From contig JACQGL010000262.1 of the NCBI GenBank assembly GCA_016199525.1, positions 1 through 43,676 of the forward strand: DNA of 43,676 nucleotides, given 5' to 3'. The notes beneath the pieces are model-generated. The model did no database searches and was not told the DNA's origin. It saw only the letters and a list, made by a program, of their open reading frames with translations. Position 1 is the stretch's first letter; the number at the start of each line of letters is the position of its first letter. Position numbers and translations under genes: made by a program. Shown here piece after piece: positions 8,088 to 18,671 of this stretch. The stretch is from Armatimonadota bacterium. Lineage in GTDB: Bacteria; Armatimonadota; SYMT01; JACQGL01.

Positions 8088-9713
8088 TCAATCGGTCTTA
8101 CCCGGCGGAGACGCTGCTTGCGGCAGCCCCGAAAGCTTTCGGGGCTGCCGCCCACGCCACAGGCACCATGCCGCCATGGTGAGTGCGGAAAGATAGCCGG
8201 GCCAGTCCCCCAGCCGGACATAGAGTGTCCGGTCCTCCCGCAGCGGCAGCGTCGCCACGCGGAAATCCTGCTGAAAGAGAGGAATTTCGGCCACACGCCG
8301 TCCGTAGGGATCGATAAGGTCGGAGATGCCCGCATTGGCGGCGCGAACCACGCTGCGGCGCGTCTCCACGGCTCGCAAAGGCGCCATCGCCTCGTGCTGG
8401 AGCGCGGCGTTCCGACGGTCCCGCCAGCTATCGCTGGTAAGTAGCGCCAGCAGGTTGGCGCCGTTGCGAACCTGCTCTCTGGTGATCCGGCCAAAAGCGG
8501 ACTCGAAGCAAATGGCCACGCCTACCTGCAGATCGCCGTCGCGCACGGGGCGGAATGCGCGTCCCGGCGTCATATCTCGCCGCGGAGCGCCCAGAATGGC
8601 GGCGGAGGGCCACAACCAGCGTAGAGGTAAGTACTCGCCCATTGGGACGAGGAATACCTTATCGTAGCGATCTACGATCCGCCCCCGGGCGTCCAGGAGA
8701 AAGGCGGAGTTGGTCAGGCCCCGCGTGGGAGATCTGTCGAAGCTGCCGGTCAGGATGCGCGCGTGATACTGTTGCGCCATTCCGGCCAGCTCCTGCTGCA
8801 GGGTGGGGCTGGCGAGCAGGTCGTCCCACGTCGCCGCTTCTCCCCAGACGATCAGCTGCGCGCGCGCGCTGCCCGCGCCGCGGGTAAGCGGGTAGTAGCC
8901 CTCCGGGGCCGATTGTACGTCAACATACGGCTGGTCGGACGGATAGGAGATGCTCCCCTGGACGACACCCACCCGCAGCACGGGGGAGGGAGGGAGCGGG
9001 GTGGTGAGCAGCCAGAGCCCCCGCCCGAGTGACAGGGCAACCGCTGCGCCCGCCGCGGCCAGTCGCCAGAGTCTGCGGGACCCACTCCCCGGCGGCTTTA
9101 CCAGCGCCTCCGCCAGGGAAGCGGCCAGCCAGGCCATCAGAAACGATAGTCCGCAGCTGCCTGTGAGATCGAGCAGTTGCAGCGCCACGGGGCAGCGATG
9201 CTGACTGACGGCGAGGTCCCCCCAGGTGAATCCCAGCGGGCCGAGGGAACGGCCCCACTCCGCCGCCGTCCAGGTGGCCGCGAGCGCGAGGGATCGCCAG
9301 CCGGGGGGAACCGTGATGGCCAGCCTGCGCCCCAGGCCCACCGCCAGCCCGATCCAGGCGCCGCTGATCAGTGCCGCGGCGACCCATCCAGGTGCGGAGA
9401 AGCGCGCCATCCACGTAAGATGGAGCAGGAAGAACAGGAAGCCGGCGAGCAGACCCCACAGGCCCGGCCTTTGCCAGGGCCCCAGGGCGAGGAGGAACAG
9501 CGGCACGGGTGCGAGCCAGCCCAACCAGCCCTGATCGAAGGGCGGAAATGCCAGGAGCAGCCATCCCGCTCCGACCAGCGCCAGCATCAGCGGCGACCAC
9601 ACACTTCGGAGCGTGACCGCAGGTGACTCACTGCCACGGCTGCCAGCAGCGGCAGGGGAGGGCTGCTTCCCGGCAAGGGACGGGTTCTTATCCACGCCAG
9701 CGTCTCGGTGCAA
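8088..9713 (-). CDS. lnt: Apolipoprotein N-acyltransferase
   Basis: Transfers a third acyl chain to the N-terminal Cys of lipoproteins in the inner membrane. The 541-residue protein has an N-terminal block of six to seven transmembrane helices (about 41-235) and a C-terminal nitrilase-fold domain (about 245-500). The catalytic triad is visible: Glu292 (LIVWGEAA), Lys352 (YDKVFLVPMGEYLP) and Cys402 (VAICFES). A last helix near 505-520 ends the family domain. The final 21 residues (after CLWRG) are encoded largely by a palindromic repeat at 8121-8150 and look like an added tail. The start (TTG at 9713) is uncertain; the first 37 residues are not conserved and a GTG at about residue 38 is possible. 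It fits with the several lipobox proteins nearby. Confidence 0.93.
   Translation of the reverse strand: MHRDAGVDKNPSLAGKQPSPAAAGSRGSESPAVTLRSVWSPLMLALVGAGWLLLAFPPFDQGWLGWLAPVPLFLLALGPWQRPGLWGLLAGFLFFLLHLTWMARFSAPGWVAAALISGAWIGLAVGLGRRLAITVPPGWRSLALAATWTAAEWGRSLGPLGFTWGDLAVSQHRCPVALQLLDLTGSCGLSFLMAWLAASLAEALVKPPGSGSRRLWRLAAAGAAVALSLGRGLWLLTTPLPPSPVLRVGVVQGSISYPSDQPYVDVQSAPEGYYPLTRGAGSARAQLIVWGEAATWDDLLASPTLQQELAGMAQQYHARILTGSFDRSPTRGLTNSAFLLDARGRIVDRYDKVFLVPMGEYLPLRWLWPSAAILGAPRRDMTPGRAFRPVRDGDLQVGVAICFESAFGRITREQVRNGANLLALLTSDSWRDRRNAALQHEAMAPLRAVETRRSVVRAANAGISDLIDPYGRRVAEIPLFQQDFRVATLPLREDRTLYVRLGDWPGYLSALTMAAWCLWRGRQPRKLSGLPQAASPPGKTD
8121..8150. repeat. Palindrome family copy 1, inside the lnt 3' end
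   Basis: A perfect 30-bp inverted repeat: arm CGGCAGCCCCGAAAG followed by its exact reverse complement. The core CCCCGAAAGCTTTCGGGG is shared by copies at 9896, 10551, 17659 and 25633. It encodes QPRKLSGLPQ near the Lnt C-terminus. Confidence 0.85.
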
Positions 9714-9918: not shown

Positions 9919-12900
9919 TCACTCGTCCTGCCCACGGGCGCGGCGCTTGGCGCGCAGAAGCCGGGAGGTGTGGTCCTCCGGCTCTGTTGCGCTCGCGTCG
10001 GCCGCAGGCACGGCATCGGGCCGGGCGCCGGTCCCGATGAAATCGGGATCGGATGGCCCGGCGGCAGCGGGAACGCCCGGCACGGACTTGCTCCAGGCCA
10101 CGGCCGGCCGCGACGGCTTGGGTGTCGGCGCGAGGGACGGCTCTGCCGCCTGCGTTCCCGCCGCAGGAGGTGATGCCGCTTCGTCTCCCCTCGCTGCGGG
10201 GGGCGGGGCAGCCGCCCCCGCGGGTTCGGCGATCCGTCCCGGTCCCGACCCCGTCGCCACTCGCTGCCGCGCCTGTTCCTTTGCCCGGCGCAGTCGGACC
10301 AGCGGCTCCGGGGATGGCTGTTCCATCCCCGCTCGTGGGGACCGGAGAATGCCCGTACGGCGGAGAAGCGCGAGCAGCCCCGCCCACAGCCAGCCCCACA
10401 CTTCGCGCGGGGAGACCATCACCCGCCGCACGGCGATATCTGCCAGCAGCAGCCACGCCGTCACCAGCACCAGCAGCGGCCAGAGATCGACCGGGGCCGC
10501 GTGCGTGGGCCGGTCATGGCGGAACAGGATCCTGCCCCACTCCCCTCCTTGTCCCGAAAGCTTTCGGGACGGGCGCGGGTACCCGGAGGAGGGATCAGGG
10601 GTGAGGCCCGGGTGCAGGCGCCCGCCCGTTCGCTCGGCCAGCCCGGTGAGCACCGGCTCGTTCGCCTGCAGGCTGGCATACTCCGGCGAATAGGGCACCG
10701 ACGCCCCCACCGTGTAGAGCCGCTGTCCGACCTTCGGGTCCTGGTAGCTCAGGCTGATGATGTACTGTCCGGTGTCGGGGGCGTCGAAAGTTCCCTCGTA
10801 GCGGCCGGGAGCGGTCTGCTCCAGCCGCAAGTCGAGCGAGCGTCGCTCCGAGGCCACACCGCCGCGGATATCGAGGAAGTTCAGGAAGTTGCCCTGCTCG
10901 TCCAGGGCATCGATCACCACCCGCCCGCGGCGCTCCGAGATCTCCACCGAGGTCTCGAAGCTGGCGCGCGCGGTGCTGCGGATCGTCCAGCGCACCACCT
11001 GCGCCCAGAACTGGTTGAATCTGCCGCCCCATCGGACCAGCCAGGGAGCGGCCCACTTGTTCGTCGCGTCGGAGGTAAACGCCACCGCCTTGCCGAGTCC
11101 GAACCGCCAGGTGGCGAGGACCGGGTCGTTCTTGTGCGAAGCGATCACGATCTCGACGCCGGGCGCCTGCTTGGCGGTGGTGGCCACGTAGCCGCGCAGT
11201 GGGGGCGGCACGCCCAGCCCCTTCAGGAGGGGCGCATCCATCTGCGCCTGGGGCTGAAACACCTCCTCGATGATCGCGGGCTTCAGAACCCGCTGTGCCT
11301 CCTTCAGGAAGATGCGGGGGATCTCTTCTGCTTGCTGTACCTGGTAGAAGCGCCCCCCGGTGGCCCTGGCCATCTGCTGCATCGCTCGTACGCCGTTGCT
11401 GTCGTGCGGAAAGACGGCCACTGTGCTGATGGAGATCTTCGCCCGCGTGATCTCCTGAAGCAGGCGAGAGGTGGGTGATTGCGGATCACCATCCGAGATG
11501 ACAATGATGTGCTTGACCCGAGCATCCGTTTTCCGCAATCCATCGTAGGCCATAGACATGATGCGGTGGAAGTCCGGCATATCTAACGGGTTCAGCTGGA
11601 AGATGCGGGTTTTGAGGAAGTCTTTATCGCGGGCGGGCTGCATCGGCAGTCCCCACTCCTCCGGCGGGCTATAGAGCAGCACCCCGATCTTGTCCTCCTC
11701 GCCCAGGACGTCCACCACGGCGGCGGCGGTTTCGCGTGCCCAGCGAGTGCCATCCGGGAACTCGCACGTGTGTAGCACCAGCGCCACGGCGCCGGAGGGC
11801 ATCACCCGTTCCTTCCGGATCTCCATGTTCACGGGTAACGCCTCTTCCACGGGCGTGCCTCGCCATGCCCCTGGGCCGAAGCTCTGCTCGCCCCCCACCA
11901 TAATCAGCCCTGCCCCCAGGTCGCGCACGTTGCTGCGGATCATCTTCATCTGGTCGGGGGTGAGCTGATCCGCCCCCACGTTGCAGAGGATGAGGCTGTC
12001 GTACGTCTGAAAATCCGCCAGGCTGGCCGGCAGCTGCCCCGGCGCCCGTACGTCCACCTCGATCTGCTGCGTGCGCAAAGCAGCGGCCAGAAACCGCGCA
12101 TCCTCGGGATCGGCACTCACGAGCAGCACGCGCGGGCGGCCACGGACCAGCGTGAGCGCCAGCGCGCGGTTGTTATCCGGTAGCTGGTCCGGCTGCGCCT
12201 CGACCACCGCCTCAAAGGTGTGTGGTCGGCTGCGAGTGAGCGTCTGTGGGAAGCGGATCAAGTTCTTCCCGGGACGCAGCGCCACGGGGCGACTCTCCAC
12301 CAGCTGGCGGTCGCGGAAGAAGCGGAGGGTCGCCTGACCCGCGTAGGTAGAGTTCACAATGGCGCGCACCTCAAACGGCTCGCCGACCTTCGCCTCTGCG
12401 GGGGCAAGAAGCTTCTCCAGGAGCACCTCGTGCTGGTAGTGGTAGCGGATGGGGACCACATCTACCTGGATGCCCGCCGCATTCGCCCCCAGCGCTTCCT
12501 GGAGCGCGGACCCAAGGTTCTCGTTCCCGTCCGTCAGCAGAACGATGCGCTTCTGGGCGTCATCCGGAAAGGCGGCCATCGCCAGACGGAGGGCGCCCGC
12601 AATATCGGTGTAGTCGCGCGCCGGCAGGCTGTGGATCCGATCCAAACGCAGCGCGGCGCTCGGCTCCACCTCCAGGTAAGCGTCCGATCCAAAGACAAGG
12701 ACGCCGGCGCGGTCATTGGGCCCCATGCGTGCTGCGGCCTCGTTGACGAAGTCCAGCTCCCGCTGGTGATGGTCGTCGGGAATGCTGTGGGAGCGGTCCA
12801 GGAGGAAGAGGACGGCCAGCCGCTTCGTTGGCCGGGTGATCTGGGTTCCCGCCAGCGCGAAGACCAGGGCGGCCACCAGGGCGCACCGCAGGCCAAGGGC

Positions 12901-13023
12901 CAGGCGCGCGCGGCCGGCGGGCAGCCCTGCCAGGCTGCGCTGGCTGACCCACCAGAGGCCTGGCAGTAGCAGTAAGAGTATCAGGTAGGCGAGGTGTGTG
13001 AAGCTGACCTGCGGCAGCAGCAT
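9919..13023 (-). CDS. Large membrane-anchored VWA-domain protein
   Basis: A 1034-residue inner-membrane protein of the batA/BatB-like or CoxE-unrelated bacterial VWA type. N-terminal helices span about 10-30 and 45-62. A first VWA domain begins at LAVLFLLDRSHSIPD with an intact MIDAS start DRSHS (Asp76). Next come a beta-sandwich part (about 190-290), a glutamine-amidotransferase-like fold without an evident catalytic Cys (RVLLVSADPEDARF to GGEQSFGPGAW), and a second VWA domain starting GAVALVLHTCEFPDG whose DxSxS is absent. A C-terminal helix (DLWPLLVLVTAWLLLADIA) is followed by a 150-residue Ala/Pro-rich tail. The ATG at 13023 has AGGTGG at suitable distance. Two palindromic repeats (10032, 10551) are inserted in the tail and in the linker before the last helix. 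Function unknown; likely protein-protein assembly at the envelope. Confidence 0.85.
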   Translation of the reverse strand: MLLPQVSFTHLAYLILLLLLPGLWWVSQRSLAGLPAGRARLALGLRCALVAALVFALAGTQITRPTKRLAVLFLLDRSHSIPDDHHQRELDFVNEAAARMGPNDRAGVLVFGSDAYLEVEPSAALRLDRIHSLPARDYTDIAGALRLAMAAFPDDAQKRIVLLTDGNENLGSALQEALGANAAGIQVDVVPIRYHYQHEVLLEKLLAPAEAKVGEPFEVRAIVNSTYAGQATLRFFRDRQLVESRPVALRPGKNLIRFPQTLTRSRPHTFEAVVEAQPDQLPDNNRALALTLVRGRPRVLLVSADPEDARFLAAALRTQQIEVDVRAPGQLPASLADFQTYDSLILCNVGADQLTPDQMKMIRSNVRDLGAGLIMVGGEQSFGPGAWRGTPVEEALPVNMEIRKERVMPSGAVALVLHTCEFPDGTRWARETAAAVVDVLGEEDKIGVLLYSPPEEWGLPMQPARDKDFLKTRIFQLNPLDMPDFHRIMSMAYDGLRKTDARVKHIIVISDGDPQSPTSRLLQEITRAKISISTVAVFPHDSNGVRAMQQMARATGGRFYQVQQAEEIPRIFLKEAQRVLKPAIIEEVFQPQAQMDAPLLKGLGVPPPLRGYVATTAKQAPGVEIVIASHKNDPVLATWRFGLGKAVAFTSDATNKWAAPWLVRWGGRFNQFWAQVVRWTIRSTARASFETSVEISERRGRVVIDALDEQGNFLNFLDIRGGVASERRSLDLRLEQTAPGRYEGTFDAPDTGQYIISLSYQDPKVGQRLYTVGASVPYSPEYASLQANEPVLTGLAERTGGRLHPGLTPDPSSGYPRPSRKLSGQGGEWGRILFRHDRPTHAAPVDLWPLLVLVTAWLLLADIAVRRVMVSPREVWGWLWAGLLALLRRTGILRSPRAGMEQPSPEPLVRLRRAKEQARQRVATGSGPGRIAEPAGAAAPPPAARGDEAASPPAAGTQAAEPSLAPTPKPSRPAVAWSKSVPGVPAAAGPSDPDFIGTGARPDAVPAADASATEPEDHTSRLLRAKRRARGQDE
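10032..10048. repeat. Palindrome family copy 4, in the VWA protein tail
   Basis: TCCCGATGAAATCGGGA, a 7-bp inverted repeat around GAA. It encodes PDFIGT in the low-complexity C-terminal tail of the VWA protein. Confidence 0.75.
10551..10570. repeat. Palindrome family copy 5, in the VWA protein linker
   Basis: GTCCCGAAAGCTTTCGGGAC, a perfect 20-bp palindrome, identical to the copy at 17659-17678. It encodes SRKLSGQ in a linker just before the last transmembrane helix of the VWA protein, without breaking the frame. Confidence 0.85.
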
Positions 13024-13221
13024 CTTAATTCCCACCTGGAAGCGGATAAGACCACGGAGACGCTGAGACCCAGAGCAGAGAGGAAGAGACCATTCAAGGT
13101 ATGGATTGCTGATGAAGCAGTTCGGCTGTTTACAACCGCCTATCTCTATGCCGCTCTCTGTCTCGTCTGATCTCCGCGTCTCTGTGACTCTACGATGAGG
13201 CCTTGGCGTGCTTGATTACGG

Positions 13222-14193
13222 CTACGGTGGCGGGAGCGGCGCAAACTTCTGGATACGGTAATTCTGTGTATCCGCCACAAGCACGTTCCCCGTCGGGTCC
13301 ACGCCGACCCCCCACGGCTGGTCAAACTCTCCCGGCGCCCGGCCCGGCCGGCCCCATGAGGTAAGAAACTGCCCCTCCCGCGTGAACACCGAGATACGGC
13401 TGTTTCCGTAGTCGGCCACGTAGACTCGCCCATATCGGTCGAGGGCCACGTCGTAGGGATAAGTGAGCTGGCCGCGCGCGTGCCCGCGTGTGCCCCACAC
13501 GGTCAGCAGCACGCCGTCCGGCCCGAACACCTGGATGCGGTGGTTCACCGCATCGGCCACATAAACGCGCCCTTGCCGATCCACGGCGAGGCCCTGCGGC
13601 CGCGAGAACTCCCCGGGCGCGCTACCGCGCCGGCCGACGGTTAACAGAGACCTGCCGCGCGGGTCGAGCTTCTGGAGCCGATCCTGCCGCCCGCCATATT
13701 CGCACGTCCAGAGGTTGCCCTGAGGATCGAGCGCCACGCCCGTGACGGCGGCAAACTCGCCGAGGCCGCGCCCCGGGCGGCCGATACGCCGCACCTCGCG
13801 CCCGTCTGGCTCGTAAACGATGATCTGGCCGTTGTGCGTATCCGCCAGCCAGAGTCGCCCGTCCGGCGCCACGCACAGGTGGCGCGGATTGCTTACTGTG
13901 CTTGGAATCCGGGGTGGAATTGGCGTCTGCCAGCCGCGCCGGTAGCGGCCGGAAGCGTCGAACACCTGCACGCGATGGGTACGGTCCAGCACATACAGTT
14001 CGCGGCCATCAGGTGAGCAGGCGATGGCCCGTGGCATCCGCAGCCGCCCCGGGTGCTCGCCGGGCTCTCCGAAAATGAGCGTCGGGGATCGGTAATCTGC
14101 CAGGCCGGCGCCGCAGCCGGCAAATCCCCAGGCCGCCAGCGCGACCCACGCCAGCCGTCCGAGGCCTGTCCACCATGTGCGCCGGAAGTGCAC
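13222..14193 (-). CDS. NHL-repeat beta-propeller lipoprotein
   Basis: A 323-residue exported protein. The signal peptide ends in a lipobox (WGFAGC, Cys27), so it should be lipid-anchored in the envelope. The rest is six NHL-type blades, each with a pattern such as PRGLAVDRQGRVYVADAVNHRIQVF, giving a six-bladed beta-propeller: blades start near residues 52, 104, 150, 195, 242 and 290. NHL propellers bind proteins, RNA or small ligands; there are no catalytic residues visible. The GTG start lies about 30 nt after the predicted transcription start of the promoter at 14227-14279. Gene order beside the VWA protein gives no clear pathway. Confidence 0.88.
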   Translation of the reverse strand: MHFRRTWWTGLGRLAWVALAAWGFAGCGAGLADYRSPTLIFGEPGEHPGRLRMPRAIACSPDGRELYVLDRTHRVQVFDASGRYRRGWQTPIPPRIPSTVSNPRHLCVAPDGRLWLADTHNGQIIVYEPDGREVRRIGRPGRGLGEFAAVTGVALDPQGNLWTCEYGGRQDRLQKLDPRGRSLLTVGRRGSAPGEFSRPQGLAVDRQGRVYVADAVNHRIQVFGPDGVLLTVWGTRGHARGQLTYPYDVALDRYGRVYVADYGNSRISVFTREGQFLTSWGRPGRAPGEFDQPWGVGVDPTGNVLVADTQNYRIQKFAPLPPP

Positions 14194-14226
14194 GCGCCGT
14201 CCCGGAGTAGTCCCCTCGTGTCTTCT

Positions 14227-14279
14227 GCCTCACTGTAGCAGAGCGGACCGGGGGCGTCAACGCGGCAGACGAGGAGGGA
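14227..14279 (-). promoter_or_regulatory. Duplicated sigma70 promoter, copy A (for the NHL lipoprotein)
   Basis: On the minus strand TTGACG (14255-14260) and TACAGT (14232-14237) are separated by exactly 17 bp, a near-consensus sigma70 promoter. The predicted start point is near 14224, some 30 nt before the lipoprotein start. The whole 53-bp block recurs at 15062-15114 with a single mismatch (14247 against 15082). Confidence 0.8.
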
Positions 14280-14296
14280 AAAGTCGGGCCTGGCCA

Positions 14297-14713
14297 TCAG
14301 GGCTGGGGCCCTGTCTGGCTCCAGGCGGGGGCCTCTGGCGGTGTCTCTTCACCCCCCGTGTAGAGCGCGTCGGCGGCGGGCGATTCCCTCACGGAGCCGG
14401 GCAAGGTTGGCGAGCTGGTCGCCGGTGGCAGACTCACCTGACTGGCTTGCTCCTCCCACTGATCCAGCAGCGGCTTCCACCCTGCCGCCCGCGCGATCTC
14501 GTGCATCCGCTCGCGAATCCAGGGGGCATCGGCGCTCAGGTCTCGCTCCTCGAAGAGGCGTAGCAGCACCTGGGGGACGTGGTCAAAAGCGTAGGCAATG
14601 GAGTGGCAGCGCGCGGCATCGCCTTCGGCGGCCCAGTAACGAATCTCCATCAGGGCGAATTGGAGGAGTTTCAGGTAATACCGGATGCGCTCGTCCACTG
14701 GTTCAGGCTTCAT
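14297..14713 (-). CDS. Hypothetical protein, 138 aa
   Basis: A soluble protein of unknown function. The first 90 residues (MKPEPVDERIRYYLKLLQFALMEI...) look wholly helical and could form a small helical bundle; the last 45 are Ser/Pro-rich and probably disordered. The helical part resembles in outline a bundle of about 85 residues seen in immunity or adaptor-type small proteins, but no family is recognised. The ATG at 14713 is preferred to GTG at 14722, since AGGGTG is then about 6 bp upstream. It starts 35 bp after the frameshifted gene at 14749-15047 and should share its promoter at 15062-15114. It stops just before promoter copy A. Confidence 0.65.
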   Translation of the reverse strand: MKPEPVDERIRYYLKLLQFALMEIRYWAAEGDAARCHSIAYAFDHVPQVLLRLFEERDLSADAPWIRERMHEIARAAGWKPLLDQWEEQASQVSLPPATSSPTLPGSVRESPAADALYTGGEETPPEAPAWSQTGPQP

Positions 14714-14748
14714 AGGATGCACCCTGTGTCATTGGTCTGCGGCCCCGT

Positions 14749-15047
14749 TCACGGTGACTGGGGCGGATAGGTTAGGTACGGGAGAAGAGCGTCACCTGGC
14801 AGATCTCCGCGCTGGTAACGCCGCCACAGCTCCTGGATCCGGGCGTTGCCGTTGTAGACACGCACAGGCCGGATGTCCGTCCGGATGATAATCGCCTCCG
14901 ACGGGTTCCTGGCGGCGATGCCTTCTGACAGATCGTCGCTGCTCTGGTGCTCCATGAAGGTTTCACGCTGGGCGGGATCGTCCCGGGCTGATGCACCCAC
15001 GTTTCCGGCCCCAGGTCGCGGATGCGAATCCAGTTGATCTCCCGCAC
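14749..15047 (-). pseudogene. Small unknown gene with an apparent frameshift
   Basis: A GTG at 15047 with GGAGG 8 bp upstream and a strong promoter 20 bp further up starts the frame VREINWIRIRDLGPETWVHQ. This frame is plausible for about 30 codons, then degenerates. A second frame, plausible from FMEHQSSDDLSEGIAARN (about 14958) to the end at 14749, needs a -1 shift, as if one base were missing. Together they give a protein of about 100 residues ending QRGDLPGDALLPYLTYPP. Alternatives are an independent 68-residue gene starting at the ATG at 14955, which has no good ribosome binding site, or an assembly error. No family recognised. Confidence 0.5.
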
Positions 15048-15061
15048 GCCAGTCGCCTCCC

Positions 15062-15114
15062 GCCTCACTGTAGCAGAGCGGGCCGGGGGCGTCAACGCGG
15101 CAGACGAGGAGGGA
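15062..15114 (-). promoter_or_regulatory. Duplicated sigma70 promoter, copy B
   Basis: Same 53-bp block as 14227-14279. TTGACG at 15090-15095, 17-bp spacer, TACAGT at 15067-15072 on the minus strand. The start point near 15060 falls right at the GGAGG site of the GTG at 15047, giving a leader of about 12 nt. Confidence 0.8.
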
Positions 15115-15261
15115 GGTTCGCGGGAAATCGTACGAGCCGAGCGCCGGTCGGTGTGTCACCAGATGGGCCGCCTCAAGAGTGTGCCGATGCACATCGCTGC
15201 CTCATCCGGTCGGGCAAGAGGGGGGTGAATGCGAGGCGTGAACAACGCTGAACGGGTCCTA

Positions 15262-15279
15262 TCCCGAACGCTTTCGGGA
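15262..15279. repeat. Palindrome family copy 6
   Basis: TCCCGAACGCTTTCGGGA, one base off a perfect palindrome, in the gap between 15115 and 15355. It is a diverged copy of the TCCCGAAAGCTTTCGGGA core. Confidence 0.75.
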
Positions 15280-15303
15280 CCCAAACAGAGACGCGCCAGA
15301 AAC

Positions 15304-15330
15304 GAGCGGGCGCCAGCGGGGCGTCCGCTC
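15304..15330 (-). terminator. Hairpin downstream of the secreted Gly-rich protein gene
   Basis: Minus-strand arms GAGCGGACGCC and GGCGCCCGCTC form an 11-bp stem with one G-A type mismatch around CCGCT, 26 bp after the stop of the gene at 15356. The following GTTTCTGG is only weakly U-rich, so this is a probable rather than certain intrinsic terminator. Confidence 0.5.
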
Positions 15331-15355
15331 GCTCCCGAGCGCCTTTTTCCATCCG

Positions 15356-16435
15356 CTACCCGCTCACCGGCTGCGAGCGGGGCGCGTCGGGAGTAATGAT
15401 CAACGATCCGTAATTCCCACTCAGGCGGCGCCCTGTCTTTAGATGCACCAGGCGCGCGCGCCAGCGACCATCCTTGTGTGGGCTCAGTCGGGCTCCCATC
15501 AGGAACCGGGTGCCGCCGCCCTTGGGGACCAGGGTCAGCAGCGCGTCGCCTTCCGCGTCCCGCTTGCCCATCACGCGCACGGGGGTCCCGTCGTTGAGCA
15601 GGGCACGGCCGGTGAACGCCTGCCCGGAGTCGCCCATCATCTGCTCGGCCACTCTATAAAGGCGTGCGTACTCGCCCTGGTTGCTATCCGCCGCCGCTGT
15701 GAGTCCCGCCACGTTGAGTAGCCGGTTGGCCAGATCGACCTCCTCGTCGGAGAGGACGGTCAGGCGCGTCTGCTCGATATCTTCGCGAGTGGCGCCACGG
15801 GCCGCCCAGATCGCGTACTGGGTGACGTTACTAGCCGCGATCCCCAGCCGGGCGGCAGCGCTCAGGAGGAGCGGCAGGTGGGGCGCCGGCATGGGAGAAG
15901 CCCCCTCCGGCGTGAGGAGGATTCCCGCGCCCACGTTCAGCGCTACCGGCTCGTGGCTCTGGTTCACCCAGAGAATGTGGAGCGCGCCCCAGCCGTCGCG
16001 CGGCAGTTGCTCCATCGGCCCGGGCCCGCGCGCGATGAGTACTCTGGCCTGCACCGCCTCTGGCAGCGAGAACCCCATTCCGGACGCGAGCAGCACTCGG
16101 CCCGCGTCCGCAGGGGGTGCGTAGCGCGCCGTCTGGTCCGGCGGTGAGGCGAACAAATCGGTGCAGTACGCCAGAGAAATGGCCGCCCCGCCCGGGAGCA
16201 GGATGCCTTGCGTGTTGCTGCCCAGGAACCCTCCCTGGAACGGGGTCTGCCCGGATCGGAACCCCGGTCCGCCGAACGGCTGGCCGCCAAACGGCACACC
16301 CCCGCCCACCCCTGGCCCGCCGTAGGGAGCGCCGCCGATCCCGGGCACCTGCGCCCTCCCGGGGCCACTGATCGCCGCCATGCACAGCGCCGCGCCGACC
16401 AGCCAGAGGGGTCGCATCCATCGCTGTCCCTTCAT
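15356..16435 (-). CDS. Secreted protein with Gly-rich N-terminal region
   Basis: A 359-residue exported protein of unknown function. The signal peptide is MRPLWLVGAALCMAAISGPGRAQ-like, with cleavage after GRAQ or near it. Residues 30-75 are Gly/Pro/Phe-rich with a repeated GGxPFGG unit. The folded part (about 80-350) starts with a domain (ISLAYCTDLFASPPD) and ends in two strand-rich stretches (LVPKGGGTRFLMGARLSP, KDGRWRARLVHLKTGRRL). The start ATG follows a strong AAGGAGGGG site. It has its own likely terminator at 15304-15330. The low-complexity N-terminus is reminiscent of the secreted protein at 39674, but I see no shared domain. Confidence 0.75.
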   Translation of the reverse strand: MKGQRWMRPLWLVGAALCMAAISGPGRAQVPGIGGAPYGGPGVGGGVPFGGQPFGGPGFRSGQTPFQGGFLGSNTQGILLPGGAAISLAYCTDLFASPPDQTARYAPPADAGRVLLASGMGFSLPEAVQARVLIARGPGPMEQLPRDGWGALHILWVNQSHEPVALNVGAGILLTPEGASPMPAPHLPLLLSAAARLGIAASNVTQYAIWAARGATREDIEQTRLTVLSDEEVDLANRLLNVAGLTAAADSNQGEYARLYRVAEQMMGDSGQAFTGRALLNDGTPVRVMGKRDAEGDALLTLVPKGGGTRFLMGARLSPHKDGRWRARLVHLKTGRRLSGNYGSLIITPDAPRSQPVSG

Positions 16436-16508
16436 CCTTCCCCTCCTTGTCCACGCGATGCAGATCTTATAACCATTGGACGCCGCCCGACCCGGCTTTG
16501 TCGCCGGA

Positions 16509-17501
16509 TTACTCCGGCCACTGGAACAACACCCCCATTATCTTCTCGTCCCATTGGGCCAGCCGGTGGTACGCCTGCGGCGCGTACTGCGCGGGGATGC
16601 GGTCGGTAATCAGTGGCCGGGGATCCAGCCGGCGGGTCTGGACCAACCGAAAGAACGCGGTTACATCGTCCCGCCAGGTCCACCAGCCAGGAGCAGAGTC
16701 ACGCGCCGGCCGTGCGTAGGTGTGCGCGCCGATCACCTGGAGGCCCTTGCAGTGGACGTCGGTATAGAAGTTGACCCCATCCGTCACGCCGCGCGTGCTT
16801 GCCAGAAGAACGACGCGCCCGTGGGGCCGGGCCATCTGAAGGGCGGTGATCACTGGCTCCGGGCGGCCGGTCGCCTCAATCACCACGTCTGGTCCGTCGG
16901 GGGTGCACAGGGCACGCAGGCGGTCAGAGAAGTCGGCAGCCTCAGGGTTGAGGCAGGCGTCCGCCGCGCCTTCGGAGAACGCCAGCCGGCGGGGGGACAG
17001 GTCGAGCGCGGCCACGGGGCAGGCGCCGCCCAGGCGGGCAAGACGTACCGCCAGCTGGCCCACGAGCCCCTGGCCGAGCACCGCCACTGATTCGCCGATC
17101 TCCAGGCGCGCCTTGCGCACCCCCTGGAGGGTGATTGCCGCCAGGTTGAAAAATGCCGCGGCTTCCAGGTCGATCCCGGCTGGCAGTGGCACCGCCTCGT
17201 CCGCGCGGGTCAGCACGGCGCCCGCGTGGGGAGCAGGCGCCGCAATCAGATCGCCAGGCTGTACCGAGCGGACTTCTTCCCCTACCGCCTCCACCACGCC
17301 GATGAAGCTGTAGCCGGGGTAAATGGGAAAGTGGCGCGGGGTGTTGGGGAGGCCGAGCAGCCATGCGCGCTCGGTTCCGGGGCTGATGAGCGTGTAGCGG
17401 GCGCGCGCCAGGATCTGGTCCGGTGCCGGGGGATCCGGCACGAAGCTCTCCATCTCGACACGGCCCGGCTCCGGCCAAACGACCCGCACAGTGGGTTTCA
17501 T
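16509..17501 (-). CDS. Zinc-type MDR dehydrogenase-like oxidoreductase
   Basis: A 330-residue medium-chain dehydrogenase/reductase. The N-terminal GroES-like domain has ISPGTERAW where active alcohol dehydrogenases have the zinc-binding Cys (C-G-T-D), then YPGYSFIGVVEAVGEEV. The Rossmann part has VLGQGLVGQLAVRLARLGG (about 147-165) for NAD(P) binding, and later VVIEATGRPEPVI. The catalytic zinc Cys and the four-Cys structural zinc lobe are both missing. This fits the branch with SPGTER seen in sugar- and polysaccharide-related MDR proteins and in BchC-like enzymes. GGAGG lies 9 bp before the ATG. The substrate is unknown; it neighbours a secreted phosphodiesterase without clear link. Confidence 0.8.
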   Translation of the reverse strand: MKPTVRVVWPEPGRVEMESFVPDPPAPDQILARARYTLISPGTERAWLLGLPNTPRHFPIYPGYSFIGVVEAVGEEVRSVQPGDLIAAPAPHAGAVLTRADEAVPLPAGIDLEAAAFFNLAAITLQGVRKARLEIGESVAVLGQGLVGQLAVRLARLGGACPVAALDLSPRRLAFSEGAADACLNPEAADFSDRLRALCTPDGPDVVIEATGRPEPVITALQMARPHGRVVLLASTRGVTDGVNFYTDVHCKGLQVIGAHTYARPARDSAPGWWTWRDDVTAFFRLVQTRRLDPRPLITDRIPAQYAPQAYHRLAQWDEKIMGVLFQWPE

Positions 17502-17546
17502 CGCAGGTACCTCCCGAGCCTTGTACCGGCAAGCGGGGACGGCACT

Positions 17547-18671
17547 CTACCGATTGATTCGCGGGACGAAGCCGGTTTCCTGCGCTACCCGCTCTTTGCT
17601 GCGCGCGGCGCCCGGCGCCGCACCGCTACAATCGCCAGTCCCGCTGCCATCGGGACCAGTCCCGAAAGCTTTCGGGACCACGCCCGCCCGGGTGGATGGC
17701 GACCCCATGGTGCCGCCGATCGGGCCGGGCGATTCTGGCTGGGATAGCGCCGGGCTGCGCTTGGGAACGCCGTGCACGTCTCCAGGGGACGCCAGCGCCT
17801 CGACCACAGGCCGGCCCTGGCAGCCGGAGGGTAGCGGGAGACCAAGCGCGAACAGCACCGTCGCCGCGGTATCGCACGTGCTGATCTCCACCCGGAGATC
17901 GGTGTGCGGACGGGCCGCCCCACCGGCGGCGATCCAGGGGATGAGTTGGTCGACGGCACGGGCCGATCCGTGCCCGCGGCCGTGGCCCCCGTGGTCCGAG
18001 GTGATCAGGAACAGGGTGCGCTCCCAGTCGCCGGCAGATCGGATGGCGGCAGTGAGCCGCCCTACGGCGGCATCGCAGTCGGCCAGGGCGCGCATCTGGG
18101 CAGCGCTCATCCAGCCCCAGAAGTGGCCGGCGGAGTCCGGATCGGGGAAATGGACGAACAGCAACTGCGGCCGATAGCGCCGGTAGTAGGCTGTCGCTGC
18201 TGCGCCAATCTCACGGGCCGAGACGCCGGGAATGCTGAACCGAGTCAGCGTATCTTTGGCAACCAGATGACGAAACTTCGTTTTGCCTGCGAACAGGGCG
18301 ACCCGCAGCCCCGCCTCCCGCGCCACGCTGAAGATCGTGGGCACGGACAACGTTCCCCGGCGCGGCTTGTAGTCGTTCCAAGTGATACCGTGGCCCGCGG
18401 GCAGCAACCCGGTCACCATGCTGGCGTGGTTTGGCAGGGTGACGCTGGGGAGTACGGCGTGCGCCGTCCATGAGTGGGCACCGCTTTCCCACAACTGGCG
18501 CATCACGGGCACGCGGGCGCGCTGCAGAGCATCCGGCCGGGCGCCATCCAGACTCACGATCACCACCCGCTCGGCGGGTGCGCCGAACGCGGCCGGGGCC
18601 AGCACGCCGAGCAGCGCGAGGAGGAACCACCGTCCCACCGTCCGGCGGAGAGGAGCAAACCAGGGGAGCAC
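17547..18671 (-). CDS. Secreted NPP-like phosphodiesterase/pyrophosphatase (alkaline phosphatase superfamily)
   Basis: A 374-residue exported enzyme of the ectonucleotide pyrophosphatase/phosphodiesterase type. A signal peptide (about 1-32, ending LLGVLAPAAFGAPA) precedes the metal site. Visible motifs are VVIVSLDGARPDAL (first metal Asp), SVTLPNHASMVTGLLP (nucleophile Thr just before LPNH), PDPDSAGHFWG (Asp and His of the second metal), and ITSDHGGHG. The family domain ends near GRPVVEALASPGD; the last 75 residues are a low-complexity tail carrying palindromes at 17639-17678 in frame. The GTG at 18671 with AGGAAAGG upstream is preferred to a start at 18728. Substrate is probably a nucleotide or a phosphodiester headgroup; this is inference. 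Confidence 0.85.
   Translation of the reverse strand: MLPWFAPLRRTVGRWFLLALLGVLAPAAFGAPAERVVIVSLDGARPDALQRARVPVMRQLWESGAHSWTAHAVLPSVTLPNHASMVTGLLPAGHGITWNDYKPRRGTLSVPTIFSVAREAGLRVALFAGKTKFRHLVAKDTLTRFSIPGVSAREIGAAATAYYRRYRPQLLFVHFPDPDSAGHFWGWMSAAQMRALADCDAAVGRLTAAIRSAGDWERTLFLITSDHGGHGRGHGSARAVDQLIPWIAAGGAARPHTDLRVEISTCDTAATVLFALGLPLPSGCQGRPVVEALASPGDVHGVPKRSPALSQPESPGPIGGTMGSPSTRAGVVPKAFGTGPDGSGTGDCSGAAPGAARSKERVAQETGFVPRINR
17639..17678. repeat. Palindrome family copy 7 and a diverged neighbour, in the phosphodiesterase tail
   Basis: GTCCCGAAAGCTTTCGGGAC at 17659-17678 is a perfect 20-bp palindrome. Just beside it, at 17639-17655, TCCCGCTGCCATCGGGA is a diverged copy with TCCCG and CGGGA arms. 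Both lie in the C-terminal low-complexity tail and preserve the frame (VVPKAFGTGP, DGSGTG). Confidence 0.8.

Follow-up and report, generated by a model that had tools for sequence, protein, structure and literature searches.

A putative sigma-70-type promoter present in two near-identical copies before non-homologous genes of an Armatimonadota bacterium

Among the documented routes of gene activation in bacteria is promoter capture, in which an existing promoter is copied by rearrangement in front of a gene that needs to be expressed, and the cases described in PMC5906472 and PMC11111574 include the copying of promoters by tandem duplication without homology. Mobile promoters that occur in multiple copies are also known (Matus-Garcia et al. 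2012 and van Passel et al. 2014, as cited in PMC8049555). Here, we compare with these systems a short repeated block in an Armatimonadota genome (assembly GCA_016199525.1, contig JACQGL010000262.1), analyzed within a stretch of 43,676 nucleotides that is referred to as the window.

The repeated block and its promoter class

A direct repeat search of the 43.7-kb window returned the block pair as its longest and most identical direct repeat, with the two copies on the minus strand at 14222-14279 (copy 1) and 15057-15114 (copy 2), a spacing of 835 bp, and 95% identity over 58 nt (three mismatches). The inner 53 nt (14227-14279 versus 15062-15114) differ at a single position within the spacer between the -35 and -10 hexamers (A/G at about 14247 / 15082), in agreement with an earlier note that had described a 53-bp block repeated 835 bp apart with one mismatch and carrying TTGACG-17-TACAGT on the minus strand in both copies. 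The block also takes in 19 nt upstream of the -35 hexamer, and a search with a 32-nt core pattern gave two matches against an expectation of 0.00. Outside the block, the similarity of the upstream flanks was lower than that of shuffled sequence and the similarity of the downstream flanks was not higher; the block edges are sharp and the flanks unrelated. A gapped alignment that seemed to suggest homology running on into the leaders and upstream flanks was rejected, as it did not exceed shuffled sequence. The claim that the identity is wider than the promoter core while the downstream genes are non-homologous is therefore borne out by the 58-nt repeat and its sharp edges.

Because the copies are not identical and are embedded in unrelated flanks, a trivial assembly duplicate, the caveat raised in the earlier note, is unlikely. 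A misjoined or duplicated contig end would find some footing in the fragmentation of the assembly (266 contigs, 88% complete) and in a frame break in one of the downstream genes, but neither copy lies at a contig end, their flanks are unrelated, and 3 of their 58 positions differ, and we regard an assembly artefact as extremely improbable. Throughout these 266 contigs (3.7 Mb), the block is present in two copies only, both local, and the genome-wide search proposed in the earlier note gave no further copy. The 1,061-nt region that holds both copies has no match in 60 genomes of the same phylum and no match among plasmids; a plasmid origin of the segment was rejected on the latter result. Membership in a dispersed family of mobile promoters would account for a promoter-sized repeat in front of unrelated genes, but with just two copies in the whole genome, both local, and nothing matching the region in the 60 relatives, this reading is scarcely credible, and a dispersed promoter family was dismissed on copy number. 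Of the earlier description of a promoter cassette copied as a unit, the promoter reading and the copying as a unit are retained, given the sharp edges, the identity beyond the core, and the non-homologous genes, while the notion of a repeatedly mobilized unit is dropped, given only two copies.

Copy 1 contains the candidate promoter P1, with -35 TTGACG at 14260-14255, -10 TACAGT at 14237-14232 after TGC, and a predicted start near 14225-14224, and copy 2 contains the candidate promoter P2, with -35 TTGACG at 15095-15090, -10 TACAGT at 15072-15067 after TGC, and a predicted start near 15060; TTGACG-17-TACAGT thus spans 14260-14232 and 15095-15067. Each matches the sigma-70 hexamers at 9 of 12 positions, has a spacer of 17 nt (within the 16-18 nt expected), and carries the TG of an extended -10 promoter one base before the hexamer. 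P1 and P2 are the sole promoter-like sites in 12900-17600 (4.7 kb), where shuffled sequences gave 0.4 +/- 0.7. The more general pattern TTGAC-N15-TGNTANNNT (equivalent to TTGAC-N15-TG-N-TANNNT) was found at 41 sites in the 3.7-Mb assembly versus 0 in the reversed control, and of 30 sites inspected in their sequence context, 7 were directly followed by a tRNA gene in the same orientation (Ala, Gln, Ala, Gly, Leu, Ser, and Pro). Together, these two results argue that the pattern marks a real housekeeping promoter, in which case the window sites P1 and P2 would belong to the housekeeping class, probably the main sigma-70-type promoter of this genome. They also suggest that extended -10 promoters are common at its tRNA genes. 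The tRNA genes directly downstream of the pattern are located at L124, L128, L130, L136, L138, L139, and L148. No structured RNA leader was matched by Rfam within the window.

A regulator shared by both units and binding the whole block, as in a regulon of two members, could keep the copies alike in place of recent duplication, and the extension of identity over the spacer and upstream of the -35 hexamer is consistent with such binding. However, the genome has no further block copy, no clear operator dyad was noted in the block by eye, and recent copying alone accounts for the identity, which leaves this explanation unlikely.

Downstream genes and the origin of the second copy

The first gene after P1 has a GTG start and encodes an NHL-repeat beta-propeller lipoprotein (13222-14193, minus strand; Pfam NHL, 1.2e-40), with 59% identical homologs in the two genomes of the same order (order-mates). 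It is followed by a gene for a large VWA / GATase1-like protein (9919-13035, minus strand), and the two genes are apparently neighbors in both order-mates as well (L010 and L011, read by eye from antisense ORFs). No promoter-like site was found upstream of the NHL gene in these two order-mates. A search of genome contigs with the NHL protein yielded distant relatives alone, from other phyla and with identities of about 42% or less, too remote to inform on the ancestral arrangement, and a search with the protein of 15356-16435 yielded none.

Copy 2 was described in the earlier note as preceding a small frameshifted gene; the frame break stands, with the correction that a second, intact small ORF follows 26 nt on, so that copy 2 likely precedes a two-gene unit, B-A. 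Gene B (14749-15047, minus strand) is a small orphan ORF broken near 14995, with the N-terminal part VREINWIRIRDLGPETWVHQP in one frame and the C-terminal part, beginning ARDDPAQRETFMEHQSSDD, in another, and the break may reflect either a pseudogene or an assembly indel. Gene A (14297-14722, minus strand; 141 aa) stops 17 nt short of block copy 1. Neither gene was matched by a Pfam or NCBIfam model, and neither has a homolog anywhere in the genomes of the two order-mates. Family-model and homolog searches assigned gene B to no family and gave it no credible homolog; a candidate in G207 was discarded because the match is arginine-rich and due to chance, and its frame looks non-coding. For gene A, a single homolog, weak but sensible, is present in another genome of the phylum (G044). 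In that genome the homolog (L030, 1456-1782) lies among small genes of no known family (1077-1499 and 1911-2252).

Starting from the repeat, its sharp edges, its two copies, and its promoter class, all of which are read directly from the DNA, we consider it likely that the pair arose from a single recent, local duplication of an ordinary sigma-70-type extended -10 promoter, with P1 driving NHL-VWA and P2 driving B-A. At both copies, RNA polymerase carrying the housekeeping sigma factor would initiate about 7 nt downstream of TACAGT, and the two neighboring units would be transcribed at similar basal strength without common coding homology, although P2 may now drive a pseudogene since gene B is frame-broken. 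The limitation of the duplication to about -54 to +5 relative to the start, together with the identity of 16 of 17 positions in the unconstrained spacer, suggests either that the event was recent or that the copies have undergone gene conversion with each other. The second copy could have been made by illegitimate or template-switch recombination along either of two routes, in which a bare promoter was placed before B-A or a [P2-B-A] segment was joined beside P1-NHL. The arrival of [P2-B-A] as a unit has the lineage restriction of A and B in its favor: both are without homologs in the order-mates whereas the NHL gene has one, which makes a recently added B-A unit plausible.

A different origin for the same arrangement is that B-A was inserted by recombination at the block, from a circle or donor DNA that carried one copy, leaving block copies as direct repeats on both sides, between which recombination could again delete the 835 bp. 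The geometry (block-B-A-block), the lineage restriction of B and A, and the greater age of the NHL-VWA pair all fit this scenario, but no integrase, transposase, or recombinase gene and no element ends were identified in the B-A segment, and the codon-position base composition of A and B resembles that of the neighboring genes; we hold it to be possible, although on the unlikely side. That the blocks form a small recombination site pair, between which B-A is gained and lost as a promoter-flanked cassette that leaves P-NHL intact each time, is a speculative extension and very unlikely.

A palindromic repeat in the window

A separate repeat, the palindrome CCCGAAAGCTTTCGGG, is more striking than the promoter repeat and merits more attention. 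It was found at 293 sites genome-wide (allowing up to one mismatch) versus 0 in the reversed control of the same genome, and at 0 or 1 site in each of 20 relatives. In the window, it is located at 8128, 9860 (variant), 9897, 10553, 15263 (variant), 17661, and 25634 (variant); the variant at 15263-15278 is intergenic and upstream of P2. Because the copies at 10553 (within the VWA gene, ..PRPSRKLSGQ..) and 17661 (within a phosphodiesterase-like ORF, ..VVPKAFGTGP..) are in frame inside ORFs, the palindrome resembles a REP-like element that has proliferated, or a palindromic element tolerated in coding sequence.

Comparison with described systems

Two near-identical copies with sharp edges in front of non-homologous genes are what promoter duplication or capture produces, and the block pair is best classed as such a case. 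As in promoter capture, an existing promoter appears to have been copied upstream of another gene with no homology between the genes, although here we see a natural end state alone, without observed selection or a known ancestor. Like mobile promoters, the pair consists of a short promoter sequence repeated in front of genes without homology, but it falls below their copy number, with two copies 835 bp apart and no dispersal within or between genomes. Compared with sigma-70 extended -10 promoters (TTGAC, a 17-nt spacer, and TGnTAnnnT, as in the tRNA promoters of this genome), the sole difference is that the two copies here are near-identical over 53 nt. The pair is not a new kind of element and leaves the understanding of promoter evolution unchanged, as local promoter copying is an already understood way to gain expression. 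Its value is that of one clean case from nature in which an entire promoter was copied locally, with sharp edges, in a lineage that has received little study and that incidentally appears to use the extended -10 sigma-70 promoter at its tRNA genes too.
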